Source: Agelas oroides (taxonomy: Eukaryota; Porifera; Demospongiae; Agelasida; Agelasidae). From it: a DNA stretch of 64,000 nucleotides. The position numbers were made by a program, and so were the translations under genes. The notes beneath the pieces were generated by a model. That model was not told where the DNA came from. It ran no database searches and worked only from the letters and a program-made list of their open reading frames with translations. Where the stretch lies: positions 7,231,127 to 7,295,126 of the forward strand of contig OX422185.1 in assembly GCA_949130485.1 (NCBI GenBank). Reading direction: 5' to 3'. Below are positions 7,388 through 56,033 of this stretch, piece after piece (the stretch's first letter is position 1; the number at the start of each line of letters is the position of its first letter).

Positions 7388-8620
7388 TTATATGCATCCA
7401 AGTGCAGACAGTGGAAATGATGGCAGCAGGGAGAGCACTATTCCTTTAACTCCCATTTCAATATGTGCTTGCACTAACAGCATCAGCTCATATACAGCAA
7501 GAAGTGTGATTATCAGTCCCAGGATTGCAACAATCACAACAAACTGTACACAAATCTTTCCACAGTACCTTACATTGCAGCAAACACTTCTCCTTCTTGG
7601 CTGCTGACACCAATACAGCACATAAGCAACAATGATTGTCAAAGCAACAGATGGCATAAGCAAATATATTAAATAAAGCATTGTAACTTGGGGGTGTGTC
7701 AGTAGCAGTACAGTGAGGGGAATTACAGTCATGGTAGCCAACTGTATGGTGATCAGGATGTTCCACAGTGCCAAAACACGAACTGATTGCAACAGGTAAA
7801 GTTTCAAGGGATGATATCTCTGATCATACCTTGGTATCATGATGGCAAAATGGTGTAAATAGACATGAGAAGCTCAAGAAATATTGCAAATGGAATAATG
7901 ATTACTTTGGCTAGCAGAGTAGTAACTTCATCACTGTAAGCACTTGTACCAGATGGAATTGTGCAAGGATGTTTGGAGAGATGAATGACACAAGCTGTAA
8001 TAGCTGGATCATTTGAACCAAATGATTCCAAATTGAAAGTGTCGTGTATGCAACATTGCACAAGAAACTTCCAAACGCTGTATTTTTTATAGCGTGTGGA
8101 CACATAACCCTTGTCACTTGCATCAGGTTTACCATGGACTGGTATGTATGTGTCTTTACCTGTATGTATGAGAGTGCAACAATTCTGATAACAATTGCTG
8201 CTTGTCTTTCATCACAAATCTATACCATCATAGTGTTGCAATGACTACTTTTGGTATGGCATTGTAATAGCTATGTCAAACCATTACGTAAGTACAAAAT
8301 TAATTGCATGCAACAACTTTTGATGCAGATGAATGTACTTACCCAACAAAGCAGTTGGATGAGTGCTTCTAGTAGGTCTTTCTCAGAAATATCATTGGGA
8401 AATGAGTCAATTTGAAGTTCAACTGATAACCGTGAACGATGAAAGGTGGATTGATAAACAACTCTGCTCAAAACAGTAGATAGAGAGTCTGCTTGTTTGT
8501 TTTCAAAGCATCCTCTAGCTTCTGAAATAAGACTTGTGGTGCCATGTCACCTCTGCTGTGTACAACCATTGTTGCAATGAAGAGAAAGGATATAGTAGCA
8601 AGCACATTCTGCATGGACAT
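7388..8620 (-). pseudogene. T1: broken member of the signal-peptide/7TM family
   Basis: Exon 2 runs from an ATG at 8620 or 8614 to the donor after TGG at 8343. The signal peptide (NVLATISFLFIATMVVHS) and KLEDALKTNKQTLYLL are followed directly, in another frame, by SRVVYQ...SEKDLLEALIQLLCW. About 70 residues of the middle ectodomain are missing. Exon 3 starts near 8159 with a frame change close to its start, lacks TM1-TM2, changes frame again near 7840, and stops at 7388 without the usual charged tail. TM4-TM7 (ALWNILITIQLATMTVIP to LSLLPSFPLSALG) are well preserved. Several independent lesions make a functional product unlikely. It is the 3'-most member of the array in transcription order. 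Confidence 0.85.
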
Positions 8621-8699
8621 CTGCATTGAAAGAAGAAATCTGCAGTCAAGAATTGATAAGCACAGGCATAAATCAAACCACTGCATTGTGAACTGCACT

Positions 8700-10914
8700 T
8701 TTTGAAAGACTGATCAGGCAATAGCTTTTACGTCTACAAATATCAGCTATAATGTTACAGTAGCAAAAATTTGCTTCATTTAGCAGACTCTATAAATACC
8801 TTCACACATCCTTGGCCTGTTATCACAATTAAACCACTGCATTGTCTGACAATGATGCAGCAGATAGGCAGCAGTAAATATCAGTTACAGAAATCCTCCC
8901 GATTTCCCACTATAAACTCTGTCACGTTGAGAACTTTTCCTTGTATCAGACAAAAAGAATCCTTGCATAACTCTTGACTTGGCATAAAGCACACTTTGAA
9001 TACCGTATTTATGTATCTTATAGCAATGATGCGTTTTTGTAACTACTGAATGTAACTGGATCAACCATAAAAGGGCAAACACCTTTGTTTTATTAGTCAA
9101 AATGCACTGTTTATACAGCTCTAAAGGTACCATCTGCATTGAAAGCAGGACTACATTACATAAACATTTCATGTTAGTGTGCACTGACACAATGAGAAGG
9201 TCAAGATAGTGGGAGGAGCTCCTCATTACCATTTGTTAATGAAAATCAACCATATACAGATCGTGTTTCACTGTGTTTTGGATTCCACCACAGCTTTCTC
9301 CTTTTGGACTGTTTCCAGTGATAACAGGAACAGTCTCTAACTGTTTTACACAACACCTCCTAGCTTGAACCACAACCACTGAGCTATTTGGACAACCACC
9401 ACAATTCTCTATATGTATTACACTGACAGTACTGGTTGGTTTGTCACACACATGGCAGCCACACAGTTTGGCCAGTGGCTGCCAGATTTTCAATTTTTAC
9501 CTCATGAAAATTGCAGCTGACACAAAATATCATAGGTAGGTTTGAAAGTTCAACATTGTGCAACTATCAGCATAATTTTTATGTTCCTCTATTATATCTT
9601 TATGATATGTAGCTATCAATGTCTGGTGTTTGTGAGTAGTTAGAACATTCAATTAATAAATTTGAATGTTTAACATGATTATGATTGTGGAGTTTTAATG
9701 TGTTGAAATTGTGAACGCTAGTTTATAATAGACCTTTGGCGCTTTCAGTACACATGCATGCACAATGGAAGCAATTCATCCATGCAATGATGATCAATCT
9801 CAGACAAATTGTATCTGTTGTGAAAGAAGTCAAAGAAGTGGACAAATGTCCAGCAGTCATGCACTTGTGCATGTATGATACAACCAGAAAATGCCTGAAA
9901 AGCAATTGTTACCATGTGGAGAGCACAATAGCTTTAAACCTATTCATAGTGTACTCTGATGATCCCAACTAAACAGAAGCTTCGGAGCTGAGTAAGAAGT
10001 AGTCCTGGGCAGTGTATAGATGCTACACTGAGAAGAATGAGATCAAGGTGTGCTTTACCTTAAATGTGCTTTACCTTAAATGGTCAATGGTAGCTAACTA
10101 TCATTAGTTTCAAAGTTTTTCATATAAGTTACATGGGTTGCAAATTTTCGGTCCCAAAGACAATCCATAAATCCCCATTCGCTTCTGTTGTTATCAACAC
10201 TCAGCTTGGAGGCTCTTAGGTTTGTAACCAAATTATACAAGTTGTAATTATTACAATACTACATTGTACTCAGTCTTTTAAGAGTAGCTACAACCCATGC
10301 ATCCACCCTCTCCCAAGCCCACACTCCGACCATGTCTAATCAGAGTAAGTATTTCACAAGCTAGCTTCTAGTGAAATAGCTAAGATCAGTCTGAGTCGTT
10401 TCTTCACATACTGTATCATTGTTGTAAGATAATGCATGCAGAATTCGTGTAGAAGTTTGTTGTTTCTTGGTGTAGCTAAAGGAAATGCCAAATGAACTGT
10501 TTCAGCACATTTCGTGATATACAAAGAAACAACCAAATTCTGTATGCAATTGCAATGCTCTTCTTTTAACTAAGTGATGCAGTATAAACAGGTATAAATG
10601 AAGAGGAAGGTTATCTGTTACCAACTTGAGCTCGGAAATTTTGTTGTGTGTAAAAAAAAATTTCATGAGTAGCTAACGTTTATAGTCATGATGCATAGTG
10701 GGCTACATTAGGAATGATGCTAGTAGAATGTTTTAAGGTTGTCTTGGCAAGAACAGTAGGAGTTAAATACAAATACATGCTGTGGCTACAATTGGCAATC
10801 CTAGTTAGAGGGGTCAAGATAATTGTTTACATGGACATGCACAGATTAATCAATCGGCTAAGTGCTAAGTTACAGAGCTAATACACAACCTTTAGTGTAT
10901 AAACAAAAGCATCT
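8700..10914. other. intergenic, duplicated at about 24740-26749; no assignable gene
   Basis: It holds short open frames kept in part in both copies. One is a Cys-rich minus frame at 9236-9493 (LCGCHVCDKPTSTVSVIHIE), with a relative at 25380-25628. The other is a plus frame at 9736-9972, interrupted in the second copy. Neither has a signal, domain or consistent reading frame between copies. They may be relics of a host exon; I do not assign a function. Confidence 0.4.
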
Positions 10915-12591
10915 CTACAAAGGCAAAGGCTCTTCATCTTTACTATACTCTGACATGTTAATTGACTGTTGTTCTTCAGCCGTCTGCTCCAATGTTTTTT
11001 CATTTGAAGTCTTGCTAGCCTTCTTCTGAGACCTTCTTTTCAAGTACCACCCAAGTGCAGACAGTGGAAAGGATGGGAGTAGAGAGAGTAATATTCCCTT
11101 TATTCCAGTTTCAATTTGTACTTGCCCTATTAGCATCAGCTCATATAGAGCAAGAAGTGTGATTATTAGTCCCAGGATTGCAACAATCAAAACGAGATGA
11201 ACAAATTTTTTCCCAAGGTGCTTTGGATTGCACCACAGCCTTCTTGTTGATTGTTGACAATGATGCAGCAGATAGGCAGCAGTAAATATCAAGCCACAAA
11301 GTAATATTGCGACAAATAGTATGTAGAAAATAGTCATTTGTGGCCAGATAATTAGTAGTCCAGAGATGGGAATGGCAACCATGGTGAACAGTTGTAGAGC
11401 TATTAAAATATTCCACAATGCAAGAACATGAAATGTCTGTAGTAGGCAGTGCTTCCAGGAATGACAATGGTGGCCCCATCTCAGCCTCCTCCGAGTGATG
11501 TAGTGAGTTCTCACAGCATAAATTGAAGCTAGCAGTTCTATGAACGCTGCAAGAGGGACGAGTGTAACTTTGGCCACTAAAGTGAGAACTTCGTCTTGGT
11601 AAACACTTGTGTCAGAAGGAATATCACACTTGTGATTTAGAATGCATAATGTAATGGTAGGGATGTTATGAAGAAATTGATGTCTAATTGAAGAAACTGT
11701 GTAAAAAATATTGAATGGGAAAGCTACAATACCTGTTGCCCAGTACAAGCATTCCATGATGTCTCCAGTTGAGGATTTAGCCATGATTCTGGGGTAGTAC
11801 AGAGATGCTGACTTTGTAAGGGCAATTGGTGTGGCAATATTTAGGAATGTGAAGCTACACAATATGGTTAGACGATAGAAGTGAGCACAATTTTTGAATG
11901 ATCCCTTTTGCAATTCTGTCACATGCTTGTTATAGGAAATGGATACATATCCCTTGTCAATTTCACTTGGTTGACCATGGACTCTTGCATATGACTTCAC
12001 CTACACAGATAGATAAGACAGTACAATGAAGTATATACAGCGTTGGTATGAAGTAACTTAAAGAGAAATCATTTATCCAGCATGTGTAGATATACTTACC
12101 CAGGGGAGGAGTTGCATTAGAGCTTCCAGAATATCGTCTGCTGTAACATCACATGGAAGACTGTCAATTTGAAGGGGAACTTTTAACTCTGCTTCATGTC
12201 TTATAATGTGACTGATGTGGTGAATTATGACATTGTCTAATACTAATAACTGATCATTTGATAGTAGATTCAATAACACAGATCTGCTCCACTGAAATTT
12301 CTTGCAGTAAGAAAAATTACCTTGACCACCAGGTAAGAAAGAGTTACCACAATTTCCAGGTTGCACACCACCTACTGTGACACATACATGAAGGCGAAGT
12401 GAATCTGGAGGAAGGTTTTGAGATGGGAAAAATGCCTCTTGCATTTGGTGCAAAACAAAACCATTTTGGATCAATGAATTCTCCAACTTCTGATACGTAT
12501 CCTGGATTGCAACATTGGATTTACTTTGTACAATCACAGCTGCAACTATTAGTAGAATGAGGGAGTGAATCCTAATGTGCAGTGTCCCCAT
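10915..12591 (-). CDS. T2: putative secreted-ectodomain/seven-transmembrane receptor-like protein
   Basis: Two coding exons: 12591-12100 (164 codons) and 12000-10915 (361 codons plus stop), with a 99-bp GT-AG intron (GTAAGT donor). The ATG at 12591 is chosen because the in-frame ATG at 12645 lies before a likely 3' splice site (CATGAAG/ATTTC) that matches the position in paralogues. Order: signal peptide (HSLILLIVAAVIVQS), ectodomain with sequon NFSYC and the motif QWSRSVLLNLLSNDQLLVLD, the junction LLPW, seven hydrophobic segments, and a tail ending DEEPLPL. Basic residues sit in the TM3-TM4 and TM5-TM6 loops, and a Cys pair sits in the TM2-TM3 loop. I do not recognise the family; a receptor role is inferred from topology only. 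T6 is its broken duplicate. Confidence 0.85.
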
Positions 12592-12836
12592 AGCCGCTGT
12601 TCTTGAAATCTTCATGAAAATAAATAAACTGTCAATATATCTCATTTTAGAATGACATCAAATTCTTCATGAAAAAATACAATTTATGCAGTAAAACTCC
12701 CCTAATGTGGCCACAAGAACTAAGTCTACTGAGTAGGAATGATTTCCCCTTTGTCAGGGAGAACAGCATAGTAAGATTAGTGGTCAGAACTTAGTCACTT
12801 GTCAGGATGTCCTTATTTCAGCTAGTTACATGCCTG

Positions 12837-12900: not shown

Positions 12901-12949
12901 GACATAGTCAAATGAAAACATAACCACTGCAAAACAAATCTACCTCCAT

Positions 12950-14822: not shown

Positions 14823-16487
14823 TTATGGTGGTAAGGGCTCTTCATCAGTTGTACTGTCAAATACTTGGATGATGTTCACAGAATCTGACTCCTCATTCTC
14901 TTCTGCCGTTAAGTCTTTCTTCTGAGATTTCTTCCAATTCAAATACCATCCAACAGCAGACAATGGAAGAGATGGAAGTAGTGAGAGGACTATTCCTTTT
15001 ATTCCAACCTGTGCTTGAACCATCAGCATCACCTCATATAAGGCAACAAGTAAAATGACCAGTCCCAGGATTGCAATGATCAAAATCAACTGCACAAGAC
15101 TTTTTACACAGCGCTTTGGACTGCATCTTCTTCTTGGCTCTTGACACCAATAAAGCAGGTAGGAAATAACGAGTATTAAACTAACAAGTAAAAGTATAAA
15201 AAAGATTAAGAGAAGAATTGTAACTTGGGGGTGTGTCAATAGTAGCACACCAAGGGGAAGGACAGTCATTGTAGCCAATTGTATGCTGATAAAAATGTTC
15301 CACAATCCAAAAACATGAACTGTTTGCAGCAGGTAGTGCTTACAGCAGTAATATCTGTGATCATACCTTATTCGTCTCACAATGTAAATGTACCCATACT
15401 GCAGTCTTGTTATGATAAAATGTCTTACAACATAAACAGCAATAAAGAGCTCAATGATTGTTGCAACTGGAATTATAATTACTTTGGCTAACAGAGTGAG
15501 AATTTCATCAGTATAAACAGATGTATTGGATGGAATTGTGCAAGGAAACCGAGGAAGATGAATGACACATGTAGTAATATCTGGCTCATTGTTAACAATG
15601 TGAAATCTGAATGACATTCGAATGTAATTAACATTTAGAACAAAAGCTATAAATGCTGTTGCCCAATATAAGCATCCAACAAAATCTCCATTGGAAGCTT
15701 TGGCTCTTAGTTTTGGGTAATACACAGGCACTGACATTGCAATGACAATTGGTGTGAGAACGTTTAAAAATACAAAAGTACTTAACAACAAAACACGATA
15801 GTAATGACCCATAAATGATTCTGTAACAATGTCATTATAGCTTATTGATACATATCCCTTGTCATTGGCATCTGGTGGACCGTGGACTCGTGCATATGCT
15901 TTTGCCTGTACATGTGAGAGTGGAGTATTTTAGTTATAATCACATTTTCTACGTCAACAACAATTCATTATACACATGAACTTACATACCCAAGAAAGAA
16001 GTTGTATCAGTGCTTCCAAAACATCATTTTCAGAAACACTGCAAGGAAGTGAACCAATATGAAGCTGAACAGTCAACCATGAATGGCGCTGGATGCTGTT
16101 GTAAACAGTTCTGCTTAAAACATTGTCCATTGCCAGCAACTGATTGTTTGAAATGAGATCAAGAAAAGGAGATCTGCTCCATTGAAACTTTTGGCGGTAT
16201 CGGAAGTTGGTTGAGACACCAGGTGAAGAAGAACACCCAGGACACTCCTCTGGCACTATACTGCCTATTGTAACAGACACGTCAAAGTAAACATAGTCTT
16301 TAGGTGATTCTTGTACTGGAAAGAATGCGCCTTGCATTTGGTAGAGGGTTTTGTTGTCTGCTTTAAAAGCGTTCTTTAGCTTCGGAAACAGAACTCGGGG
16401 TGCCATGTCACCTCTCCCTCCCATAATCAGAGCTGCAATGAGCAGACTGAGGGAGATGCGTGCACACTGGGTCAGTCTTACAGCCAT
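14823..16487 (-). CDS. T3: putative secreted-ectodomain/seven-transmembrane receptor-like protein
   Basis: Coding exons 16487-15990 (166 codons) and 15905-14823 (360 codons plus stop). The 84-bp intron has a GTATGT donor and the acceptor TACAG/GCAAAAGC. The ATG lies 6 nt after a likely acceptor at 16494 of a 5'-UTR intron. Signal peptide ISLSLLIAALIMG; ectodomain KFQWSRSPFLDLISNNQLL; junction LLSW; seven hydrophobic segments; tail ending DEEPLPP. The TM2-TM3 loop reads TTCVIHLPRFPCTIPSNTS, with a Cys pair and a sequon. Its duplicate T7 is frameshifted in exon 2. The upstream region carries two AP-1-like sites. Confidence 0.85.
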
Positions 16488-16493
16488 TGATAT

Positions 16494-16668: not shown

Positions 16669-16704
16669 AGAGGCACAGCTCCCGGACTCAATGAGACTTT
16701 GTGC

Positions 16705-18178: not shown

Positions 18179-19946
18179 TTACAACAGCAAAGGTTCCTCA
18201 TCAATGTTACCATCGGTATTCTGAATCTGTTGCTCTCCAGTTATTAGCTGAAGTTCTTCTTCATCAGCATTGGCTGCAGCTCTTCTCTGCAATCTTTTTT
18301 TCAGGTACCATCCAAGTGCAGACAGTGGCAACGATGGGAGTAGGGAGAGCACTATTCCTTTTACTCCAGTATCAATCTGTACTTGTACAAAGAGCATCAA
18401 TTCATACAGGACAAGCAGTTCAATTACAAGTCCCAGGACTGCAATAATTGAAACAAAGTGCACAAATGTTCTTCCACAGTGCCTTACATTGCAACGAATT
18501 CTTTTCCTTCTTGGTTCGTGACACTGATACACCAGGTAGGCAGCAATGAGTGTCAGCCCAACAAGTACGATAACAAGAAACATTAACATGAGGATTGTTT
18601 CTTGTGGGCGTGTCAGTAGCAGTACAGTGAGGGGAATGACAGTCATGGTAGCCAACTGTATAGTGATCATAATGTTCCACAGTGCCAAAACATGAATGGA
18701 TTGCAGCAGGTAGTGTTTCCAGTAACGATATCCGTGATTGTACCGTAGTCTCATGGCAATGAATTGATGCCTCACAGCGTAAACAGAAATAAGAAGCTCA
18801 ATGAACACTGCAACTGGAATAATGGTTACTTTGGCTACTAAGGTAAGAACTTCATCTTTATAAATGGTGGTACTGGCTGGAATTGTGCAGTGCTGATTAG
18901 AAAGATGAATGACACAAGAGGTGATGGTTGGAAGATTCTTACCAAAATGATTCCAAAATGAGTTTGCCGTGTATCCAACATTGTAGACGAAGGTTGTGAA
19001 TGCTGTTGTCCAGTACAAGTATCCAACAAAATCTCCAGTTGATGTTTTTGCTCTTATTTTAGAGTAGTACCAAGGTGTTGACTTTGCAAGGACAATTAGT
19101 GTAAGAATGTTCAAGAATACAAAAGCACATAGCAGTGAAACTTGAAACGAGTGAGCAAAAGTGTGACTATAGTACGAATCTGTGACATAATCATTATAAC
19201 TTAGGGATACATATCCTTTGTCTTTTTCTTCTGGTGGTCCATGGACTCGTACATATGCCTTTACCTGCACATGTAAGGGTGCATCTGTCTTATAAACCAT
19301 TCCCATTAGTGTGATTTATTACATTTACTGTAGGATGTCTAAAGTATTTAATTCCTACATACCCCAGTAAATAATATTTGCATGGGATGTCTTAATACAA
19401 ACTTGTACAGGCAGCTCAAATCATCCCACACAGTAATAGTATACTACTCCTGAATACACATACCCAATACAAGAGTTGTATCAATGCTTCCAACAGATCT
19501 TTCTCAGATACACCACTAGGAAGTGAGTCAATTTGAAGTTGCATTGGCAACCACGAACAATGCCGAATGCCATTCTGAACAGCTCTGCACAAAACATTAT
19601 CCATTATCAGCAACTGATCATTTGAAATGAGATCTAGTAAAACAGAACTGCTCCATTGAAACTTTTGGTGGTATGAAGAATTACTTAACGCACCAGAGAA
19701 AGAAGAGTTCTTGTTACATCTCCCAGTACCCACTGCAATGCACACATCTAGAAAAACAAAGTCTTGGGGAATCCCATAAAATGAAAAGAATGCACCTTGC
19801 ATTAGATAGAGCATTTTGGTATTTGTTTTCAAAGCGTTCTCTAGCTTCTGATGTACAAGTTGGGGTGGCATATGATCATCACATTGCACACTTGTAGCAA
19901 ATATGAGCAGAAGTGAGATGCTAGTGTATTTGTTCTGTATAGCCAT
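18179..19946 (-). CDS. T4: putative secreted-ectodomain/seven-transmembrane receptor-like protein
   Basis: Coding exons 19946-19464 (161 codons) and 19264-18179 (361 codons plus stop). The 199-bp intron has a GTATGT donor and a GTGCAG/GTAAAG acceptor. Signal peptide YTSISLLLIFATSVQC; ectodomain KFQWSSSVLLDLISNDQLL with sequons near NSSF and NSSY; junction LLYW, where the family has LLSW or LLPW. Seven hydrophobic segments follow; the TM2-TM3 loop reads TSCVIHLSNQHCTIP. The tail ends NIDEEPLLL, which fits the [DE]xxxL[LI] acidic-dileucine sorting pattern; this is a pattern match, not evidence of trafficking. T8 is its broken duplicate. Confidence 0.85.
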
Positions 19947-22520: not shown

Positions 22521-24249
22521 TCATGTTTGTTGAAGATGGTTAAGCTCAGCTTGTTTCATGTAATCAATTTCCAGTATCGTCTGACATCTTCTTTTGAGAT
22601 ACCACCCAATTGCAGACAGTGGAAGTAATGGGAGCAGTGAGAACACTAATCCTTTGACACCAGTTCCAATCTGTGCTTGCACTAGCAGAATTGTCTCATA
22701 TAGAGCAAATATTGCAACAATTAGTCCCAGGATTGCAGAAATTAGAACAAAGTTCACGAATGTCTCCACACAGTGTATTGGATTGCAGCAAACTTGTCTC
22801 CATCTAGAATGCTGACACTGATACATAATGTAGGCAACAATGAGTACCAAAACAACAAGCACAATCACAAACAACAGTGAAAGAAAAATACTCTCTTGTG
22901 GATGGATCAATAGTAGTACACATACGGGGGTTATAACCATGGTAAACAGCTGTAAGGCTATCTGAATATTCCACAATGCAAGCACATGAACAGTTTGCAG
23001 TAGACACCGATTCCAGGGAAAAATTGTGTTACCATGTCCCTGCTCACTTTGGACAGTTGAATAAGATTTCACAGCATAAACGGAAAGTACTAGTTCTATG
23101 AAGATAGCACTTGGGATGATTGTGAGTTTGCCTACAAGAGTGAGGACTTCATCTCTATAAATATTGGTATTAGACGGAATTGAGCAGTTATAATTAGCAA
23201 GATGGATAATGCATGGTGTAATAGTGGGGCAGCCACGACTGAATTGGTGCGTAAGTGAAGCAGCAATGTATGAAGTATTGCAGAAGAAAGCCACAATAGC
23301 TGTTGCCCAGTACAAACATTCCATGAAGGCTCCAGTTGAGGCAGCAATTCTATTCCTTATTCTTGGGTAGTACAAAGGCAGTGACTTTGCAAGGGTGACT
23401 GGTGTGAGAATATTGAGAAATAAGAAAGCACATAATCAAGTCAGCCGGAAGAACTGAGCATAAGTAGCTTCTTTGTATAGCCCTTTTACATATACGTTAA
23501 AACCAATGGATACATATCCCCTGTCGTTTTTATTTGGTTTGCCATCGAGTTTTGCGTAGCTCTTCACCTGCACATAAGGAATAAAAAGTGCACAAAGGAT
23601 AAACTTGCATGTATTTAAAAAAAAAAAAAGCATCTTATACACAGGCCTGGAATAATAAATACCTATGTCTAATTGATTGTAGTAAATTGTCAAGTGTGAA
23701 ATGTAAAAATAATTACCCAAGTACATATACAGAGAATGTACATACCCATGAGAGAATTCGCAGTAGTGCATTTCGCATATCATCTTCTGTAGCACCACAA
23801 GGAAGAGTATCAATATGAAGTGGAATATATATAAAATCTCGACGTTGTATGAGGTGAAAAATAACTTCACCTACAACATTATCTAATACAAACAACTGAT
23901 CATATGGAATGAGATCAAGCAAAGCTGAACTGCTCCATTCAAAGTGCTGGCAGTATGTGAAGTTACTCTGTTCACCAGAAAAGTGAGACGTCTCACAATT
24001 TTCAGACTGCACGCTGTCAACCATGACACATGTGGCAAGATCAAGCCAATCACCTCGATTCAAACCTTGAGATGGAAATAATGCCTCTTGCAACAGGTAC
24101 AACACTTCACGATCTGTCACCAAAGCATTTTCTAACTTTTGCTGCACAACAAAAGATGCATAGGACACATTGTGAATTTTAGTGTGCACAACCGTAGCCT
24201 CAGCTAGTAGAATCACGGAGACAATAGAATACAATGTGCAAATAGCCAT
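22521..24249 (-). pseudogene. T5: 7TM-family member with one in-frame stop
   Basis: Exon 2 24249-23746 (168 codons, open) and exon 3 23567-22521 (349 codons long) keep normal lengths and splice sites. An in-frame TGA at 23438-23436, just before TM1, interrupts exon 3 where T9 and T10 read CTA (Leu): RLT-stop-LCAFLFLN. No other lesion was seen, so inactivation looks recent, or the stop may be polymorphic. The ectodomain has sequons NVS and NFT and the motif EWSSSALLDLIPYDQLFVLD. The C-terminus ends LQQT. A relic of the family tail (EPLPP) lies just downstream in another frame. Confidence 0.85.
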
Positions 24250-24588: not shown

Positions 24589-24632
24589 ATGAAGAGAAAG
24601 GATATAGTAGCAAGCACAATCTGCATTGACAT
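24589..24632 (-). pseudogene. T1' stub: start and signal peptide only
   Basis: Minus strand from 24632 reads MSMQIVLATISFLF, matching the first residues of T1 exon 2. It then runs abruptly into sequence normally found upstream of T5-type genes. This is the left junction of unit B, generated by the tandem duplication. Confidence 0.8.
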
Positions 24633-37146: not shown

Positions 37147-37356
37147 TGATATCTAGTAAAATAAAATCAACATCTAAATGGTGGCCACACGCTCACCGTA
37201 GCATCGCTCCTGGGCCTTCGCCACCGTTCTCCGAGTGATACGGAGGGCGAGGACCTGAAACCGTCACGGCGGCCCAACTGAACAGTTTAAAGATGTGCCT
37301 ACAGAGTTAGCCAGTACTTACAGAGGCACAGCTCCCGACTCGATGAGACTTGGTGC

Positions 37357-38235: not shown

Positions 38236-39320
38236 TTACAACAGCAAAGGTTCTTCATCAATGTTACCATCGGTATTCTGAATCTCTTGCTCTCCAGTCA
38301 TTAGCTGAAGTTCTTCTTCATCAGCATTGGCTGCAGCTCTTCTCTGCAATCTTTTTTTTAGGTACCATCCAAGTGCAGACAGTGGAAGCGATGGGAGAAG
38401 GGAGAGCACTATTCCTTTTACTCCAGTATCAATCTGTACTTGTACAAAGAGCATCAACTCATACAGGACAAGCAGTTCAATTACAAGTCCCAGGACCGCA
38501 ATAATTGAAACAAAGTGCACAAATGTTCTTCCACAGTGCCTTACATTGCAACAAATTCTTTTCCTTCTTGGTTCGTGACACTGATACACCAGGTAGGCAG
38601 CAATGAGTGTCAGCCCAACAAGTACCATAACAAGAAACATTAACATGAGGATTGTTTCTTGTGGGTGTACCAATAGCAGTACAGTGAGCGGAATTACAGT
38701 CATGGTAGCCAACTGTATAGTGACCAATATGTTCCACAGTGCCAAAACATGAATGGATTGCAGCAGGTAAAGTTTCCAGTAACGATATCCGTGATTGTAC
38801 CGTAGTCGCATGGCAATGAATTGATGCCTCACAGTGTAAACAGAAATAAGAAGCTCAATGAACACTGCAACTGGAATAATGGTTACTTTGGCTACTCAGG
38901 TAAGAACTTCATCTTTATAAACGGTGGTACTGGCTGGAATTGTGCAGTGCTGATTAGAAAGATGAATGACACAAGAGGTGATGGTTGGAAGATTCTTACC
39001 AAAATGATTCCAAACTGAGTTTGCCATGTATCCAACATTGTAGGTGAAGGTTGTGAATGCTGTTGTCCAGTACAAGCATCCAACAAAATCTCCAGTTGAT
39101 GTTTTTGCTCTTATTTTAGAATAGTACCAAGGTGTTGACTTTGCAAGGACAATTGGTGTAAGAATGTTCAAGAATACAAAAGCACATAGCAGTGAACTTG
39201 AAACGAGTGAGCAAAAGTGTGACTATAGTACGAATCTGTGACATAATCATTATAACTTAGGGATACATATCCTTTGTCTTTTTCTTCTGGTGGTCCATGG
39301 ACTCGTACATATGCCTTTAC
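38236..39320 (-). pseudogene. T8: exon 3 only, duplicate of T4
   Basis: Exon 3 39320-38236 is 1,085 nt (T4: 1,086). A 1-nt deletion near 39196 shifts the frame before TM1, and a TTA to TGA change (stop at 38896-38898) interrupts VLT-LVAKV at TM3. The ectodomain exon is absent: upstream sequence switches at about 39488 to the 3' flank of the T5-type gene T9. The tail NIDEEPLLL is intact. Confidence 0.9.
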
Positions 39321-39510: not shown

Positions 39511-41233
39511 TCATGTTTGTTGAAGATGGTTAAGCTCAGCTTGTTTCATGTAACCAATTTCCAGTATCGTCTGACATCTTCTTTTGATGTACCACCCAAT
39601 TGCAGACAGTGGTAGTAATGGGAGCAGGGAGAACACTAATCCTTTGACACCAGTTCCAATCTGTGCTTCCACTAACAGAATTGTCTCATATAGAGCAAAT
39701 ATAGCAATAATTAGTCCCAGGATTGCAGAAATTAGAACAAAGTTTACAAATGTCTCCACACAGTGTATTGGATTGCAGCAAGCTTGTCTCCATCTAGACT
39801 GCTGACACTGGTACATAATGTAGGCAACAATGAGTACCAAAACAACAAGCACAATCACAAACAATAGTGAAAGAAAAATAGTCTCTTGTGGGTGGATCAA
39901 TAGTAGTACACATACGGGGGTTATAACCATGGTAAACAGCTGTAAGGCTATCTGAATATTCCACAATGCAAGCACATGAACAGTTTGTAGTAGGCAATTA
40001 TTCCAGGAAAAATTTTCGCTATCATGTCCCTGCTCACTTTGGACAGCTGAATAAGATTTCACAGCATAAATGGAAAGTACTAGTTCTATGAAGATAGCAC
40101 TTGGGATGATTGTGAGTTTGCCTACAAGAGTGAGGACTTCATCTCTATAAATATTCATATCAGACGGAATTGAGCAGTTATAGTTAGCAAGATGGATAAT
40201 GCATGATGTAATAGTGGGGCAGCCACGACTGAATTGGTGCGTAAGTGAAGCAGCAATGTATGAAGTATTGCAGAGGAAAGCCACAATAGCTGTTGCCCAG
40301 TACAAACATTCCATGAAGGCTCCAGTTGAGGCAGCAATTCTATTCCTTATTCTTGGGTAGTACAAAGGCAGTGACTTTGCAAGGGTGACTGGTGTGAGAA
40401 TATTCAGAAATAAGAAAGCACATAATAGAGTCAGCCGAAACAACTGAGCATAAGTAGCTTCTTTGTATAGCCCTTTTACGTATACATTAAAACCAATGGA
40501 TACATATCCCCTGTCGTTTTTATTTGGTCTGCCATCAAGTTTTGCGTAGCTCTTCACCTGCACATAAAGAATAAAAAAATGCACAAAGGATAAACTTGCA
40601 TGTATTAAGAAAAAAAAGAAAGCATCTTATACACAGGCCTGGAATAATAAATAGCTATGTCTAATAGATTGTAGTAAATTGTCAAGTGTGAAATGTAAAA
40701 ATAATTACCCAAGTACATATACAGAATATCTACATACCCACGAGAGGAGTCGCAGCAGTGCATTTCGCATATCATCCTCTGTAGTACCACAAGGAAGAGT
40801 ATCAATATGAAGTGGAATATATACGATGTTGTATGAGGTGAAAAATAACTTCACCTACAACATTATCTAACACAAATAACTGATCATATGGAATGAGATC
40901 AAGCAAAGCTGAACTGCTCCACTCAAAGTTCCTGCAGTATGTGAAGTTACTCTGTTCACCAGAAAAGTGAGACCTCTCACAATTTTCAGGCTGCACGCTG
41001 TCAACCATGACACATGTGGCAAGATCAAGCCAGTCACCTCGATTCAAACCTTGAGATGGAAATAATGCCTCTTGCAACAGGTACAACACTTCACGATCTG
41101 TCACCAAAGCATTTTCTAACTTTTGCTGCACAACAAAAGATGCATAGGACACATTGTGAATTTTACTATGCACAACCGTAGCCTCAGCTAGCAGAATCAC
41201 GGAGACAATAGAATATAGTGTGCAAATAGCCAT
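39511..41233 (-). pseudogene. T9: T5-type member with 8-nt deletion in exon 2
   Basis: Exon 2 41233-40738 is 496 nt against 504 in T5 and T10. Eight nucleotides are lost near 40825, where T5 and T10 encode QRRDFIYIPL, so the last ~40 ectodomain residues are out of frame. Exon 3 40557-39511 (348 codons plus stop) is completely open with all seven hydrophobic segments. The signal peptide and sequons are intact. The gene end lies only about 190 bp from the T8 exon-3 start because of the T8/T9 deletion. Confidence 0.85.
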
Positions 41234-43384: not shown

Positions 43385-46300
43385 AATTGTGTTCATACAC
43401 TGTACTAAATTGTGTTCATACACTGTACTAAATTGTGTTCATACACTGTACTGAATTGTGTTCATACACTGTACTAAATTGTGTTCATACACTGTACTAA
43501 ATTGTGTTCATACACTGTACTAAATTGTGTTCATACACTGTACTAAATTGTGTTCATACACTGTACTAAATTGTGTTCATACACTGTACTAAATTGTGTT
43601 CATACACTGTACTAAATTGTGTTCATACACTGTACTAAATTGTGTTCATACACTGTACTAAATTGTGTTCATACACTGTACTAAATTGTGTTCATACACT
43701 GTACTAAATTGTGTTCATACACTGTACTAAATTGTGTTCATACACTGTACTAAATTGTGTTCATACACTGTACTAAATTGTGTTCATACACTGTACTAAA
43801 TTGTGTTCATACACTGTACTGAATTGTGTTCATACACTGTACTGAATTGTGTTCATACACTGTACTGAATTGTGTTCATACACTGTACTGAATTGTGTTC
43901 ATACACTGTACTGAATTGTGTTCATACACTGTACTGAATTGTGTTCATACACTGTACTGAATTGTGTTCATACACTGTACTGAATTGTGTTCATACACTG
44001 TACTGAATTGTGTTCATACACTGTACTAAATTGTGTTCATACACTGTACTAAATTGTGTTCATACACTGTACTAAATTGTGTTCATACACTGTACTAAAT
44101 TGTGTTCATACACTGTACTAAATTGTGTTCATACACTGTACTAAATTGTGTTCATACACTGTACTAAATTGTGTTCATACACTGTACTAAATTGTGTTCA
44201 TACACTGTACTAAATTGTGTTCATACACTGTACTGAATTGTGTTCATACACTGTACTGAATTGTGTTCATACACTGTACTGAATTGTGTTCATACACTGT
44301 ACTGAATTGTGTTCATACACTGTACTGAATTGTGTTCATACACTGTACTGAATTGTGTTCATACACTGTACTGAATTGTGTTCATACACTGTACTGAATT
44401 GTGTTCATACACTGTACTGAATTGTGTTCATACACTGTACTGAATTGTGTTCATACACTGTACTGAATTGTGTTCATACACTGTACTGAATTGTGTTCAT
44501 ACACTGTACTGAATTGTGTTCATACACTGTACTGAATTGTGTTCATACACTGTACTGAATTGTGTTCATACACTGTACTGAATTGTGTTCATACACTGTA
44601 CTGAATTGTGTTCATACACTGTACTGAATTGTGTTCATACACTGTACTGAATTGTGTTCATACACTGTACTGAATTGTGTTCATACACTGTACTGAATTG
44701 TGTTCATACACTGTACTGAATTGTGTTCATACACTGTACTAAATTGTGTTCATACACTGTACTAAATTGTGTTCATACACTGTACTAAATTGTGTTCATA
44801 CACTGTACTGAATTGTGTTCATACACTGTACTGAATTGTGTTCATACACTGTACTGAATTGTGTTCATACACTGTACTGAATTGTGTTCATACACTGTAC
44901 TGAATTGTGTTCATACACTGTACTGAATTGTGTTCATACACTGTACTGAATTGTGTTCATACACTGTACTGAATTGTGTTCATACACTGTACTGAATTGT
45001 GTTCATACACTGTACTGAATTGTGTTCATACACTGTACTGAATTGTGTTCATACACTGTACTGAATTGTGTTCATACACTGTACTGAATTGTGTTCATAC
45101 ACTGTACTGAATTGTGTTCATACACTGTACTGAATTGTGTTCATACACTGTACTAAATTGTGTTCATACACTGTACTAAATTGTGTTCATACACTGTACT
45201 AAATTGTGTTCATACACTGTACTAAATTGTGTTCATACACTGTACTAAATTGTGTTCATACACTGTACTAAATTGTGTTCATACACTGTACTAAATTGTG
45301 TTCATACACTGTACTAAATTGTGTTCATACACTGTACTAAATTGTGTTCATACACTGTACTAAATTGTGTTCATACACTGTACTGAATTGTGTTCATACA
45401 CTGTACTGAATTGTGTTCATACACTGTACTGAATTGTGTTCATACACTGTACTGAATTGTGTTCATACACTGTACTGAATTGTGTTCATACACTGTACTG
45501 AATTGTGTTCATACACTGTACTGAATTGTGTTCATACACTGTACTGAATTGTGTTCATACACTGTACTGAATTGTGTTCATACACTGTACTGAATTGTGT
45601 TCATACACTGTACTGAATTGTGTTCATACACTGTACTGAATTGTGTTCATACACTGTACTGAATTGTGTTCATACACTGTACTGAATTGTGTTCATACAC
45701 TGTACTGAATTGTGTTCATACACTGTACTGAATTGTGTTCATACACTGTACTGAATTGTGTTCATACACTGTACTGAATTGTGTTCATACACTGTACTGA
45801 ATTGTGTTCATACACTGTACTGAATTGTGTTCATACACTGTACTGAATTGTGTTCATACACTGTACTGAATTGTGTTCATACACTGTACTGAATTGTGTT
45901 CATACACTGTACTGAATTGTGTTCATACACTGTACTGAATTGTGTTCATACACTGTACTGAATTGTGTTCATACACTGTACTGAATTGTGTTCATACACT
46001 GTACTGAATTGTGTTCATACACTGTACTGAATTGTGTTCATACACTGTACTGAATTGTGTTCATACACTGTACTGAATTGTGTTCATACACTGTACTGAA
46101 TTGTGTTCATACACTGTACTGAATTGTGTTCATACACTGTACTGAATTGTGTTCATACACTGTACTGAATTGTGTTCATACACTGTACTGAATTGTGTTC
46201 ATACACTGTACTGAATTGTGTTCATACACTGTACTGAATTGTGTTCATACACTGTACTGAATTGTGTTCATACACTGTACTGAATTGTGTTCATACACTG

Positions 46301-46765
46301 TACTGAATTGTGTTCATACACTGTACTGAATTGTGTTCATACACTGTACTGAATTGTGTTCATACACTGTACTGAATTGTGTTCATACACTGTACTGAAT
46401 TGTGTTCATACACTGTACTGAATTGTGTTCATACACTGTACTGAATTGTGTTCATACACTGTACTGAATTGTGTTCATACACTGTACTGAATTGTGTTCA
46501 TACACTGTACTGAATTGTGTTCATACACTGTACTGAATTGTGTTCATACACTGTACTGAATTGTGTTCATACACTGTACTGAATTGTGTTCATACACTGT
46601 ACTGAATTGTGTTCATACACTGTACTGAATTGTGTTCATACACTGTACTGAATTGTGTTCATACACTGTACTGAATTGTGTTCATACACTGTACTGAATT
46701 GTGTTCATACACTGTACTGAATTGTGTTCATACACTGTACTGAATTGTGTTCATACACTGTACTA
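43385..46765. repeat. 23-bp minisatellite, 147 units
   Basis: The unit starts AATTGTGTTCATACACTG and ends TACTA or TACTG. The first unit starts at 43385 and the last at 46743; the difference is exactly 146 x 23, so there is no net length change. The only variation I saw is the last base (A or G), arranged in long blocks. On the right side a ~66-bp composite unit containing the 23-mer plus ATCTCACAGTGTTACAAA is repeated twice more (to about 46900). The T5 flank has the 23-mer once (about 21388). Confidence 0.97.
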
Positions 46766-46899
46766 AATCTCACAGTGTTACAAAGTGAAGGACAAAAGCA
46801 TAATTGTGTTCATACACTGTACTAAATCTCACAGTGTTACAAACTGGAGGACAAAAGCGTAATTGTGTTCATACACTGTACTAAATCTCACAGTGTTAC

Positions 46900-48006: not shown

Positions 48007-49737
48007 TCATGTTTGTTGAAGATAGTTAAGCTCAACTTGTTTCATGTAATCAATTTCCAGTATCCTCTGACATCTTCTTTTGATGTACCACCCAATTGCA
48101 GACAGTGGTAGTAATGGGAGCAGGGAGAACACTAATCCTTTGACACCAGTTCCAATCTGTGCTTCCACTAACAGAATTGTCTCATATAGAGCAAATATTG
48201 CAACAATTAGTCCCAGGACTGCAGAAATTATAACAAAGTTTACAAATGTCTCCACACAGTGTATTGGATTGCAGCAAACTTGTCTCCATCTAGACTGCTG
48301 ACACTGATACATAATGTAGGCAACAATGAGTACCAAAACAACAAGCACAATCACAAACAATAGTGAAAGAAAAATAGTCTCTTGTGGATGGATCAATAGT
48401 AGTACACATACGGGGGTTATAACCATGGTAAACAGCTGTAAGGCTATCTGAATATTCCACAATGCAAGCACATGAACAGTTTGTAGTAGGCAATTATTCC
48501 AGGAAAAATTTTCGCTATCATGTCCCTGCTCACTTTGGATAGCTGAATAAGATTTCACAGCATAAATGGAAAGTACTAGTTCTATGAAGATAGCACTTGG
48601 GATGATTGTGAGTTTGCCTACAAGAGTGAGGACTTCATCTCTATAAATATTCATATCAGACGGAATTGAGCAGTTATAGTTAGCAAGATGGATAATGCAT
48701 GATGTAATAGTGGGGCAGCCACGACTGAATTGGTGCGTAAGTGAAGCAGCAATGTATGAAGTATTGCAGAGGAAAGCCACAATAGCTATTGCCCAGTACA
48801 AACATTCCATGAAGTCTCCAGTTGAGGCAGCAATTCTATTCCTTATTCTTGGGTAGTACAAAGGCAGTGACTTTGCAAGGGTGACTGGTGTGAGAATATT
48901 GAGAAATAAGAAAGCACATAATAGAGTCAGCCGAAAGAACTGAGCATAAGTAGCTTCTTTGTATAGCCCTTTTACATATACATTAAAACCAATGGATACA
49001 TATCCCCTGTCGTTTTCATTTGGTTTGCCATCAAGTTTTGCGTAGCTCTTCACCTGCACATAAAGAATAAAAAAATGCACAAAGGATAAACTTGCATGTA
49101 TTAAGAAAAAAAAGAAAGCATCTTATACACAGGCCTGGAATAATAAATAGCTATGTATAATAGATTGTAGTAAACTGTCAAGTGTGAAATGTAAAAATAA
49201 TTACCCAAGTACATATACAGAATATCTACATACCCACGAGAGGAGTCGCAGCAGTGCATTTCGCATATCATCCTCTGTAGTACCACAAGGAAGAGTATCG
49301 ATACGAAGTGGAATATATATGAAATCTCGACGTTGTATGAGGTGAAAAATAACTTCACCTACAACATTATCTAACACAAACAACTGATCATATGGAATGA
49401 GATCAAGCAAAGCTGAACTGCTCCACTCAAAGTTCCTGCAGTATGTGAAGTTTCTCTGTTCACCAGAAAAGTGAGACCTCTCACAATTTTCAGGCTGCAC
49501 ACTGTCAACCATGACACATGTGGCAAGATCAAGCCAGTCACCTCGATTCAAACCTTGTGGTGGAAATAATGCCTCTTGCAACAGGTGCAGCACTTCACGG
49601 TCTGTGACCAAAGCATTTTCCAACTTTTGCTTCACAACAAAGGATGCATAGGACACATTGTGAATTTTACTATGCACAACCGTAGCCTCAGCTAGCAGAA
49701 TCAGGGAGACAATAGAATATAGTGTGCAAATAGCCAT
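48007..49737 (-). CDS. T10: intact T5-type signal-peptide/7TM protein
   Basis: Coding exons 49737-49234 (168 codons) and 49053-48007 (348 codons plus stop), 516 residues. Intron 180 bp, donor GTATGT, acceptor GTGCAG/GTGAAG. Approximate layout: signal peptide 1-22; ectodomain to 168 with Cys 74, 85, 100 and 151, sequons at Asn 27 and 96, and EWSSSALLDLIPYDQLFVLD at about 104-123. Hydrophobic segments fall near 209-230, 250-272, 309-334, 362-389, 394-417, 437-464 and 471-492. The TM2-TM3 loop (SCIIHLANYNCSIPS) carries a sequon and Cys. The C-terminus ends LQQT instead of the EEPL tail, a relic of which lies downstream out of frame. It is the only open copy of the T5/T9/T10 subtype. Function unknown. 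Confidence 0.87.
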
Positions 49738-49749
49738 AGTGTTTTAGAT

Positions 49750-51640: not shown

Positions 51641-53640
51641 GCAAAGTTCATTGTAGCAAAGACAATATACTTGAGACATTTCGGCTCGAGAGCCTTCGTC
51701 AGTCACAATGACACTAATGAGAAGAAAACCAGTGTTAAATAGTGAAACGGATAAATAAAGATGGGTGAGGTTGAGAATGAAAAATTGAAAAAAGGTGAAC
51801 TTGTAATGATTCAAGACGGTTTGTCAAGTGATGCATGCCATAGTTTGCTCAAGTTCAAGCCACAATCCAAGTTCATAGTCTGTTGGTTGTGTTGGTAGAT
51901 CATGATGGCCTCTGTGACTCTTCTCTTCCAATAAAATTCCTGCTGACCAATCACCTTAGCCCCTTCCCAATCAATCCGATGGTCTTCATTATGTACATGG
52001 GTTGCCACTCCATTATTCATATTGAACTTCCTGACTGCCTGTTTGTGTTCACTGACTCTCTTCTTCAATGTCCTGCAAGTTTCTCCTATGTACACTTTCT
52101 CACAGTCTTGGCAGGGAATTTCATAGATGACTCCTTTTCTCCTGTCTTCAGGTATCCTGTTCTTGACTCTCACCAACATTTGTCTGATTGTTCTGCACAG
52201 TTTGAATACTGCTCTCATGTTTACACCTTTGATAGACTGGCATACATTGGCAATCTTCTCCGACAAGCCTCTCACGTATGGTACACATAGGATCCTGTTC
52301 TCTCTGTTATCTCCAGTGTTCTCATTGGTGCTGGGTCTGGTTTGGTTGGCTATGTCTACTTTGTTGAGGATGGGGTCTAGAACCTTCTGTGGGAAGTTGT
52401 TGGATCGGAAAGCGTCATCCAGGTGTCTGATCTCCTCTTGCAGGTATTCAGTGTCACAAATGCTGACTGCTCGGTTCTTAAGGCACTTCACCACTCCAGC
52501 CAGGACTCTTGGGTGGTGATGAGAATTGTAGTCGAGGTATCGATCTGTGTGGGTCTTCTTGCGATACACTGAAGTAGTCAGCTTGTTCCCTTCTCTTCTC
52601 ACCAATACATCAAGGAAGGCGATCTGTCTGTCCACTTCCTCCTCCATGGTGAACTGTATGGCTGTTGAGGTGGTTAAGAAAGGATTCCAAGGTTTCCTGA
52701 CCGTGGGACCAGAGGACATAGGTGTCATCCACGTACCTCCGCCAGACCTTGGGTTTCATTGGGGCAGAGCTCAGGGTCGTCTCCTCAAAGTGTTCCATAT
52801 AGATGTTAGCTATGATGGGCGACAAGGGGAAGCCCATGGCCGCACCCTCTATTTGTTCATAGAACTGGTCTTGGTATTGAAAGTAGGTTGATTTGAGGCA
52901 GAGTTTGGTCAGTGCACATATATCCTCTACTGGGATCGAAGTCCTCTCCATCAGCGTCTCATCCTCATTCAGTCGTTGTTCAATCACTTTCAGGACTTCA
53001 TCAATGGGCACTCGAGTGAAGAGACTCACCTCATCAAAGCTGACCATTAGGTCACCATCATCTATTTTCATTGTGTGTGCATCACTGGCAAAGTGAGTTG
53101 AGTTCTTCACGAAGCTATCACCCTTGCCTGCTAATGGTGAGAGGGTACGTGCAAGCTCCTTGGCAAGTCTGTATGTAGGCGAGCCTATTGTGGAGACAAT
53201 TGGTCGTAGGGGGTTGTTATCCTTATGTATCTTCGGAACTCCATAGATTTGTGGTGGGTTGGAATAGTTTGGTGTGAGTTGGTCCTTGAGCTGATCGGGG
53301 ATCAATCCATTTCTATGTAGCTGCTTCACCTTCTCTGCTACTGTCTTCTCAATGCGTGTGGTTGGGTCCCTTTTTAGTTTCCGGTATGTGTTTCCATCAA
53401 ATAGGATCTCCTTCATCTTCTCTTCGTAAAGGGAACTGTCCATAACCACTGTTGCATTACCCTTATCAGCAGGTAGAATGACAATGGTGTTGTCTTTGCG
53501 TAGGTCTCTCATTGGCACACACACCCTTGCATGACTTTCATGATTTCCCTGTCTACATTCTCAAGTGAGGTGTGCGCATTATAGCTGTTAATACTTTGAA
53601 AGATTATGTGTGAAACAGTTTTCCAAGGTCGATTTTTTGG
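51640..53640 (-). mobile_element. Penelope-like retroelement (RT + GIY-YIG), broken fossil
   Basis: Minus strand. An upstream open segment (53524-52610) has reverse-transcriptase hallmarks: PPQIYGVPKIHK, MVSFDEVSLFTRVP, AAMGFPLSPIIANIYME and RRYVDDTYVLW. A following segment (to 51811) carries a C-terminal GIY-YIG endonuclease: KGVIYEIPCQDCEKVYIGET and CRTLKKRVSEHK, with the CxxC typical of Penelope-like elements. The two parts are separated by about one break, and the 5' part looks truncated. Moderate decay suggests a fairly young insertion. A hammerhead-like motif lies 3' of the coding region. Confidence 0.85.
51671..51725 (-). ncRNA. hammerhead-ribozyme-like motif of the Penelope-like element
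   Basis: On the minus strand CTGACGA is followed by A, a GGCT/AGCC stem with loop CTCG, then GAAA, which is the conserved hammerhead core order. Upstream, CAC..ACACT and AGTGT..GTG could form stem I. Hammerhead motifs are established in Penelope-like elements. Stem III here is poor, so activity is uncertain. Confidence 0.45.
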
Positions 53641-54440
53641 ATAGAGTGCCTTTGGCATCAAGTATACAACGTAATCAAAGAATCCATTAACGGTTTGTTA
53701 TCAAGGCATCTTCTAACATCAAATGTAGGAGTTGAGATGCAGGTTTTTACATTACAAAGTTGTAACAGCATAAAAAAGGAAATGTAACACCAATTCCACA
53801 CACATTGCGTTTTAGTGGGTAAGAAAGAATTGATCAACAACGGTCAACAAAGTTGTACAACACTGATAATGTGTACCCCATCCCCCAACACACACATCAC
53901 ATACACTGTGTTCAATAAAATACATAAACAGAATCACACCTGCAACAGAAGACACGGCTTGTGAGCTACTATATATTTACCGTCATTAGCTGTTTTAACC
54001 AAAGAGTAGTTACCCTGGTTGTAGTAAGCTATTAACACAGTGGTTACTTTGGTAGTACTTGCATAAACAACCTGAGAAGCAGCTACCCAGATCATCATGC
54101 ATCTTACAATCATTATCCTGCGTATAGTGATATATATATTATGTAGCTAGTGCCTTTCACTTACACTGGATCTCTATACAGTGACACTTAAGTATCATCA
54201 AATGTGAAGAAATGGCATCTTGCATCCGGTATATAACGTCAGAGTCAGTGCTTATAAACAAACTGGAATGCATGTGGGTATTTGTATTATTACTGAGAAC
54301 TTTCTACTAGGACCCTTACATGATTATATGTACTACATAAACTGAAAATGTAAAGTGAAGTCATTGTAATGTGGACAAGCTGCTGCATAGTGGAAGACTT
54401 GTATAATCATGGTGCAAATTTTCATGGTGGCAAGGGTTCT
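53640..54440. other. no gene seen between Penelope-like element and T11
   Basis: AT-rich, with no supported open frame or repeat. Confidence 0.4.
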
Positions 54441-56033
54441 TCATTCACGCAGCTCATGTCTTTGTTCATTCGCCACAACCCTCTGACATCTTCTTATCAA
54501 GTACCACCCAAGTGCAGGCAGTGGAAGGAATGGGAGTAGCGACAACACTAAACCTATAACTCCACTTCCAATCTGTGGTTGCACCAACAAAATCACCTCG
54601 TATATAATAAGAAGTGCAATCGTTAGTCCCAGAATTGTAGTAATCAAAACAAAGTGCACAAATGTCTTTACACAGTGCCTTGGACTGCAGCAAACTCTTT
54701 TTCTTATCTCCCGACACAGGTAGGCAACAATGATTGTCAAAACGACAGGTACCATCACGAAAAAAAGTGAAACGATGATAGTTACTTGTGGGCGGATCAA
54801 TAGCAGTACACAGATGGGGATGGCAATCATGGTGAGCAGCTGTACTGCTATCAAAACATTCCACAATGCAAGAACATGAAGGCACATAAAGACACATCTC
54901 AGTCTGCTCTGACCGACTGGGTGAGAAATCGCAAAATAAAATGAAACTAGTAGTTCTATAAACACTGCGCTTGGGATGATTATGACTTTGGCCACAAGAG
55001 TGAGAACTTCAGCTCTGTAAATGTTAGTATCAGATGGAATTGAGCAGTTGTAGTTAGCAAGATGGATAACGCATGGTGTAATAGTGGGGTGACCACGAGT
55101 GAATTGGTGTGAAAGTGAAGCAGAAATGTATGCCATATTGCAGAGGAAAGCCATGATAGCTGTTGTCCTGTACAAACATCCCATGAAGTCTCCAGTCATT
55201 CTCTCCCTTATTCTGGAATAGTACAAAGATAGAAACTTTGCAAGACCAAATGGAGTGAGAATACTTAGAAAAATGAAAGCACACAATAGAGTCAGCTGAT
55301 AGTATTGAACACCAGAATCCTTATACAGTTCTGTTACGAATATATTATAGCTAATGGAAACGTATCCTTTGTCGTTTTCATTTGGTTTGCCATTGAGTTT
55401 TGCATAACTCTTCACCTGTATATAAAGAACAAAAAAATACATTACTGAGAAGGAATATTAGGTCCAGCAGATCCTAGTAGAGTGTAAAGTGTGTACCACT
55501 GAGTGGAATATGTATTATGTACGTGCCCAGGGGAGGAGTCGCATCAGTGCTGCCAGCAAATCATCTTCTGTAGTACCACAAGGAAGACCATCAATTTCAA
55601 GTGGAACATTTATGTAATCCCGGCGTTCCATGAGGTGAAAAATAACTTCACCGACAACATTATCTAATACAAACAACTGATCATTTAAAATAAGATCAAC
55701 TAAAGCAGAACTGCTCCACCGGAAGACCCGGCAGTATGAGAAGTTACCAGACAAGGTAGAGTGATTACAATTTCCAGGATGCACACTGCCAACTGTGACA
55801 CATATGTAAAGATCAAGCCAGCAGCTATGCCTGCAGTCACCTCGGTTTAAACCTTGAGATGGAAATAATGCCCCTTGCAACAGGTACAGCAATTTTTGGT
55901 CTGTGAGCAAAGCATTTTCTAACTTCTGATATGCAACAAAAGATGCATGTGATACGTTGTCAATTTTGCTTTGCACAACCATAGCCACAGCTAGAATAAT
56001 CAAGAAGAATTGAAACTGTGAATGCACAGCCAT
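54441..56033 (-). CDS. T11: divergent 7TM-family member with a possible GC donor
   Basis: Exon 2 56033-55527 (169 codons) and exon 3 55415-54441 (324 codons plus stop), about 493 residues. At the exon 2 end TGG is followed by GCACGT instead of GTATGT or GTAAGT, so splicing would need a GC-AG intron or a shifted donor. The acceptor (CAG/GTGAAG) is normal. Signal peptide FQFFLIILAVAMVVQS; ectodomain with an extra CRHSC segment and RWSSSALVDLILNDQLFVLD; junction LLPW. Seven hydrophobic segments are present, but the TM3-TM4 and TM5-TM6 loops are shorter than in T10. The C-terminus ends RHELRE; a relic EEPLPP tail lies just downstream in another frame. It is the 5'-most and most diverged member. 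Confidence 0.75.

Follow-up and report, generated by a model that had tools for sequence, protein, structure and literature searches.

The 64,000-nucleotide stretch of the Agelas oroides genome analyzed here (the window) carries, at positions 7388 to 56033, 11 copies of one two-exon gene, all on the same (minus) strand. Our preferred reading, to which we give about an even chance of being right, is that they form an orphan, lineage-specific tandem family of cell-surface seven-transmembrane (7TM) proteins, most likely receptors.

When ten exon queries were back-searched and six-frame profile searches were run across the window, homology to exon 2, which encodes the 7TM part, was found at 11 sites, and homology to exon 1 at 10 of these 11 (T8 being the exception), in every case on the minus strand with an E value of 2e-10 or lower. 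By homology, the array extends from 7391 to 56039 and runs on the minus strand throughout. The six-frame profile search also listed weaker frames with E values of 0.003 to 0.94, including two on the plus strand; these were left uncounted and treated as chance matches or shreds of T1. Of the eleven same-strand members with two coding exons given in a preliminary description, all eleven sites were thus recovered, but T8 has no exon 1 and only five copies (T2, T3, T4, T10, and T11) are intact, with open reading frames (ORFs) of 493 to 543 amino acids (aa); the other six (T1, T5, T6, T7, T8, and T9) are damaged. The copies are as follows.

T1, 7391 to 8713, minus strand: degenerate; exon-2 homology in two frames (7391-7873 and 7840-8208) and exon-1 homology in two frames (8274-8546 and 8471-8713).
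T2, 10915 to 12645, minus strand: intact; exon 1 at 12100-12645, exon 2 at 10915-12000; 543 aa from the first ATG; intron of 99 bp.
T3, 14823 to 16487, minus strand: intact; exon 1 at 15990-16487, exon 2 at 14823-15905; 526 aa; intron of 84 bp.
T4, 18179 to 19946, minus strand: intact; exon 1 at 19464-19946, exon 2 at 18179-19264; 522 aa; intron of 199 bp.
T5, 22521 to 24249, minus strand: damaged; exon 1 at 23746-24249, exon 2 at 22521-23567 with one in-frame stop (23436-23438).
T6, 26750 to 29215, minus strand: damaged; exon 2 interrupted at 27242-28264 by a TTAA-flanked element of 1,023 bp; of exon 1, which is truncated, 28943-29215 matched.
T7, 35478 to 37152, minus strand: damaged; exon 2 at 35478-36560 open, exon 1 (from 36645) shifted out of frame by 4 bp inserted near 36984 in comparison with T3.
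T8, 38236 to 39320, minus strand: damaged; exon 2 lacks 1 bp near 39196 in comparison with T4, exon 1 not found.
T9, 39511 to 41233, minus strand: damaged; exon 2 at 39511-40557 open, exon 1 at 40738-41233 shifted out of frame by the loss of 8 bp in comparison with T10.
T10, 48007 to 49737, minus strand: intact; exon 1 at 49234-49737, exon 2 at 48007-49053; 516 aa; GT-AG intron of 180 bp.
T11, 54441 to 56033, minus strand: intact; exon 1 at 55527-56033 (probable signal peptide and ectodomain), exon 2 at 54441-55415 (rest of the ectodomain and 7TM part); 493 aa; GC-AG intron of 111 bp.

Across the family, a probable signal peptide and the larger part of the ectodomain come from exon 1, and the remaining ectodomain and seven hydrophobic segments from exon 2. 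The intron separating them is in phase 0, measures 84 to 199 bp, and has GT-AG splice sites in T2, T3, T4, T5, and T10 and GC-AG sites in T11. Intact exon-2 ORFs span 338 to 378 codons from stop to stop; the longest stop-to-stop ORF in 20 simulated 64-kb windows with matched dinucleotide frequencies was 200 codons. Some of the small indels (the frameshifts of T7, T8, and T9) could be explained by assembly errors.

Self-comparison revealed that T2-T3-T4-T5 and T6-T7-T8-T9 represent one block that has been duplicated, with DNA identity of 94 to 97% across the gene-bearing pieces and of 83% and 90% across two flanking pieces. The T5/T9 unit recurs as T10, a third copy sharing 93 to 94% DNA identity, with a further piece at 97.5%. 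The duplication of the T2-T5/T6-T9 block is recent; with T2-T5, T6-T9, and T10 being recent block duplicates, the eleven copies stand for fewer old lineages. The similarity of the gene-bearing pieces, introns and spacers included, would also be expected if the array were in part an assembly artifact in which T2-T5 and T6-T9 are two haplotypes of one heterozygous region set side by side. This explanation seems quite improbable, as T5, T9, and T10 are three copies, more than two haplotypes would supply, the two flanking pieces diverge further than the rest, and one block has piggyBac and TTAA insertions of its own. Even if it were true, the older lineages T1, T2, T3, T4, T5, and T11 would remain.

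The window has a eukaryotic character, with short-intron genes, a transposase of the piggyBac type, and reverse-transcriptase and GIY-YIG frames, and some of its repeat peptides are reminiscent of demosponge sequence. Several mobile and repeated sequences lie in and around the array. The 1,023-bp element that splits T6 (27242-28264) has TTAA at both ends, and the corresponding empty site is present in the T2 sequence. Elements of approximately 1.03 kb, bounded on each side by TTAA and bearing the terminal inverted repeats GGTGGCACGGT, occur at 27242-28264 and at 2228-3259 in opposite orientation and are 99% alike; they look like a recently moved, nonautonomous element of the piggyBac type. A piggyBac-type transposase ORF (31344-32780, plus strand; DDE_Tnp_1_7, E = 2.5e-89) is located between T6 and T7, within a stretch absent from the T2-T3 block. 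Frames matching RVT_1 (reverse transcriptase) and GIY-YIG overlap in different reading frames at 51814-53560 on the minus strand and presumably belong to a Penelope-like element that is apparently frameshifted. A satellite of 147 copies of a 23-bp unit (43385-46768; 99% matches) sits between the two pieces of the T10 block. The DNA at the 5' end of T1 exon 1 (8577-8851) recurs with 90% identity between T5 and T6 (24589-24871), where it is not accompanied by an exon 2; the latter site may be what is left of a twelfth copy, and the exon-1 profile does not extend to this repeat at an E value of 1. Also identified in the window were a PHD-finger frame (4600-4941, plus strand; PF00628, E = 4.2e-7), 42/28-bp tandem repeats rich in GCGAACGTT at 57154-57393 and 58779-58944 in mutually opposite orientation, and a tRNA-Ser (GGA) gene (59881-59954, plus strand).

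As introns and spacers of the block are approximately as similar between copies as the exons, little can be learned about constraint from the recent copies. Constraint is evident in the older pairs. Pairwise dN/dS was below 1 wherever it could be computed; for the older pairs, 24 of the 28 in all, it ranged from 0.21 to 0.67 for exon 1, for which two pairs (T2/T4 being one) had saturated dS and were not computable, and from 0.31 to 0.55 for exon 2, with dS exceeding 1 in many of the older pairs of T2, T3, T4, T10, and T11. The highest pairwise value (0.85) was that of T9/T10 exon 2, based on 19 changes. Pooled pN/pS, calculated as uncorrected proportions from 10 nonindependent pairs with synonymous sites partly saturated, was below 1 in all 17 regions, with values of 0.56 and 0.47 for the exon-1 and exon-2 parts of the ectodomain, respectively, and of 0.32 to 0.68 for the membrane segments, the minimum being that of segment 7. 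Thus, neither the pooled values in the 17 regions nor the pairwise ones gave a sign of strong diversifying selection, the ectodomain included. Mean identity by region peaked at 78% in segment 7 and had its lowest values in ICL2 (28%) and the tail (26%).

On the Kyte-Doolittle scale, the mean hydropathy profile of the five intact members had seven peaks in exon 2. With the Wimley-White octanol scale, the family average included an eighth peak in the segment 2-3 loop, scoring 2.2 against 6.7 to 14.9 for the other seven. In single proteins between 5 and 8 stretches passed the 19-residue hydropathy threshold, counting the N-terminal stretch where it passed; this stretch, from which the signal peptide is judged probable, did so in four of the five intact members and fell below the threshold in T4. 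A positive-inside bias was evident, as the inner loops and first 15 tail residues of the five members together hold 82 K/R against 25 D/E, compared with 12 K/R and 15 D/E in the three outer loops; ICL2 of T10 breaks this basic pattern with no K/R and three D/E. The cysteines C116 and C125 (exon 2 numbering) in ECL1 are invariant in all five. Of the 15 sequons, 12 are situated in either the ectodomain or ECL1, and TM2, ICL2, and the tail account for the other three. Hydropathy and charge counts therefore support an N-terminal hydrophobic stretch, an ectodomain, and seven segments with basic inner loops, as in the architecture first proposed.

Further features are shared to differing extents. 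The ectodomain is 177 to 185 aa long, and its motifs proved looser than the [QE]WS.S.LLDLI core and LPC...LL[SP]W ending originally quoted: the core reads RWSSSALVDLI in T11 and QWSRSVLLNLL in T2, and the ending has LPS and YW in T4 and FPN and CW in T1. With its 34 residues, segment 4 might conceal a re-entrant piece. Within predicted segments, some charged or amide residues do not vary, namely, N in TM2, E, K, and E in TM3, H, N, and Q in TM4, and E at the end of TM6, and prolines are invariant in segments 3, 4, and 7. The C terminus carries DEEPL followed by PL in T2, PP in T3, and LL in T4; T10 and T11 do not have the DEEPL tail.

The family was not recognized by any library searched. Pfam-A searches with a maximum E value of 10, in which HMMER filters drop most matches above approximately 0.1, returned nothing significant for the 13 exon-2 rows (15 families were listed, with no GPCR model among them) or for the 10 exon-1 rows (a single match, E = 0.22); one of two spliced proteins searched, out of five, had no matches and the other had two, at E values of 5.9 and 9. 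A bacterial holin model (the best Pfam E value, 0.016, in 2 of 13 exon-2 rows) and EMP70 (0.12, in 1 of 13) were set aside, as they pointed in no mutually consistent direction. NCBIfam, a prokaryote library, gave no matches for five sequences. Searches of PDB sequences with three profiles produced one chance-level match, to a peptide transporter (E = 0.27), which disappeared when the profile was built from intact members only; the other two profiles had none. The preliminary description of an unrecognized family therefore stands for Pfam-A, NCBIfam, and PDB sequences, and these profile searches made no significant assignment to a known non-receptor transporter or enzyme. No relative was accepted from the GTDB genomes and IMG/VR, which are prokaryote and viral collections; an 18-residue match in one IMG/VR contig (67% identity, E = 6e-4 within candidates) was attributed to chance, the surrounding frame being unlike the family by eye. 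Among the open-licence papers listed in literature searches, no title or abstract start describes the family, which is weak evidence of its being undescribed.

The class A signature motifs are of the DRY type, NPxxY, and CWxP, and that of Frizzled is KTxxxW. None of the patterns [DE]R[YFWH], NPxxY, and [CFW]WxP, searched for anywhere in the sequence, or the Frizzled pattern K[TS]xxxW was found in the five intact proteins. The model 7tm_1 was not among the Pfam matches of the 13 exon-2 rows and two of the five spliced proteins at a maximum E value of 10, a search in which the HMMER filters drop most matches above approximately 0.1. Nor did the matches of the exon-1 rows, exon-2 rows, and spliced proteins include GPS/GAIN and 7tm_2 (adhesion GPCRs), Venus-flytrap and 7tm_3 (class C), or the Fz domain and Frizzled models, and those of the exon-2 rows and spliced proteins did not include a 7TM profile of the Lung_7-TM_R (GOST) type. 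These results bear out the reported absence of the usual class A, adhesion, class C, and Frizzled signatures. Predicted ECL2 has five residues and no cysteine in all five intact members, the invariant cysteine pair sitting within ECL1; on this predicted topology, the loop does not have the length needed for the TM3-ECL2 disulfide usual in class A.

AlphaFold2 models of exon 2, whole and then trimmed (from 13 and 10 rows of the window), had a pLDDT of 47.0 with a pTM of 0.25 and a pLDDT of 45.6 with a pTM of 0.27, respectively. Both have long helices at the predicted segments, with TM7 broken in two in the second, and their packing is unusable. Foldseek against the PDB found no match at an E value of 0.001 or lower with either of these low-pLDDT models. 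Among the matches of the second model, GPCRs made up 41 of the best 50 of 189, including all of the first 22, at E values of 0.27 or higher and TM-scores below 0.3; for the first, 4 of 27 matches were GPCRs. On hydropathy and charge only, the proteins have seven segments and an outside N terminus, as a GPCR should. The earlier claim of GPCR-like character is thus supported in its topology, whereas a GPCR fold is neither supported nor contradicted by the models, which are unusable at pLDDT values of 47.0 and 45.6 and have a best Foldseek E value of 0.27; the GPCR matches are not used as evidence, and the proteins are not assigned to any GPCR class here.

The preferred reading, receptors at the cell surface, is favored by the intact ORFs with their conserved phase-0 intron, the dN/dS values, the seven peaks, the positive-inside bias, the sequons, the invariant ECL1 cysteines, and the conservation of TM7. 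Tandem birth and death with damaged copies, as is common in receptor arrays, was counted in its favor as well. Weighing against it are the lack of a sequence link to any receptor and the unusable AlphaFold2 models, together with ICL2 of T10, the 3 of 15 misplaced sequons, the 34-residue segment 4, the weak eighth peak, and the lack of any sign of diversifying selection. The invariant charged or polar residues in TM3 (K and E) and TM4 (H, N, and Q) would also suit a transporter or channel. Along with the invariant prolines of segments 3, 4, and 7 and the lack of a receptor match, these residues within the predicted segments speak for a rather unlikely alternative, in which the family is a tandem-expanded non-receptor membrane protein, be it a transporter, channel, scramblase, or membrane enzyme, whose seven segments are capped on the lumenal or extracellular side. 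However, transporter and channel families were not matched significantly either, the lone PDB hit having been lost with the intact-member profile, and odd segment numbers following a signal peptide and an ectodomain are seen more often in receptors.

In the preferred reading, an N-terminal signal peptide would be followed by an ectodomain of approximately 180 residues with a few cysteines and sequons, seven segments, and a short tail, with the N terminus outside and the C-terminal tail inside. Ligand contact may fall to the ectodomain and to the outer loop joining segments 2 and 3, and the seven-segment part may relay the signal to the basic inner loops, as it does to the inner side in GPCRs generally. 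Cleavage of the probable signal peptide, location at the cell surface, the receptor role, and any signaling are all putative, and the chemosensory or self/non-self role raised in the preliminary description is speculative.

The closest described plan is that of the GOST and Hi-GOLD receptors (GPR107/108, TMEM87, GPR180, and TMEM145; PMC12716839), which have a GOLD-domain ectodomain followed by a 7TM part and homologues in sponges. Like these, the array proteins pass directly from the ectodomain to seven segments; unlike them, they have no Pfam match to the GOST/Hi-GOLD 7TM domain and have undergone tandem expansion with damaged copies. The common plan and the reported presence of Hi-GOLD in sponges would be compatible with a very diverged member of this or another 7TM family already described that carries an N-terminal domain. 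We consider this improbable, since no GOST or other GPCR model was among the Pfam matches of the 13 exon-2 and 10 exon-1 rows at a maximum E value of 10, bearing in mind that HMMER filters drop most matches above approximately 0.1. Adhesion, glutamate, and frizzled GPCRs likewise combine an extracellular domain with seven segments, but the array proteins have no Pfam match to GPS/GAIN, Venus-flytrap, Fz, 7tm_2, 7tm_3, or Frizzled. Lineage-specific expansions of class A receptors, including one described for the sponge Amphimedon (PMC4302439), resemble the array in being lineage specific and having seven segments. The array proteins differ from class A in having no DRY, NPxxY, CWxP, or 7tm_1, a predicted ECL2 too short for the disulfide, and an ectodomain of 177 to 185 aa.

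A bolder form of the preferred reading, which we hold only tentatively and think unlikely, is that the family represents a new class of cell-surface receptors built from seven helices and a distinct ectodomain fold, unrelated to the known GPCR classes and tandem expanded in an early-branching animal; if true, this class would be overlooked by Pfam-based GPCR censuses. The Amphimedon census began, according to PMC4302439, from 282 sequences found by Pfam search, and as the present family matches no Pfam model, it would be absent from a count of that kind. Should the proteins not be receptors, the array would still be a clear case of birth and death in an orphan membrane-protein family. If they do act as receptors, the organism would have a larger sensory or recognition repertoire than Pfam-based censuses report, with a putative signaling route.
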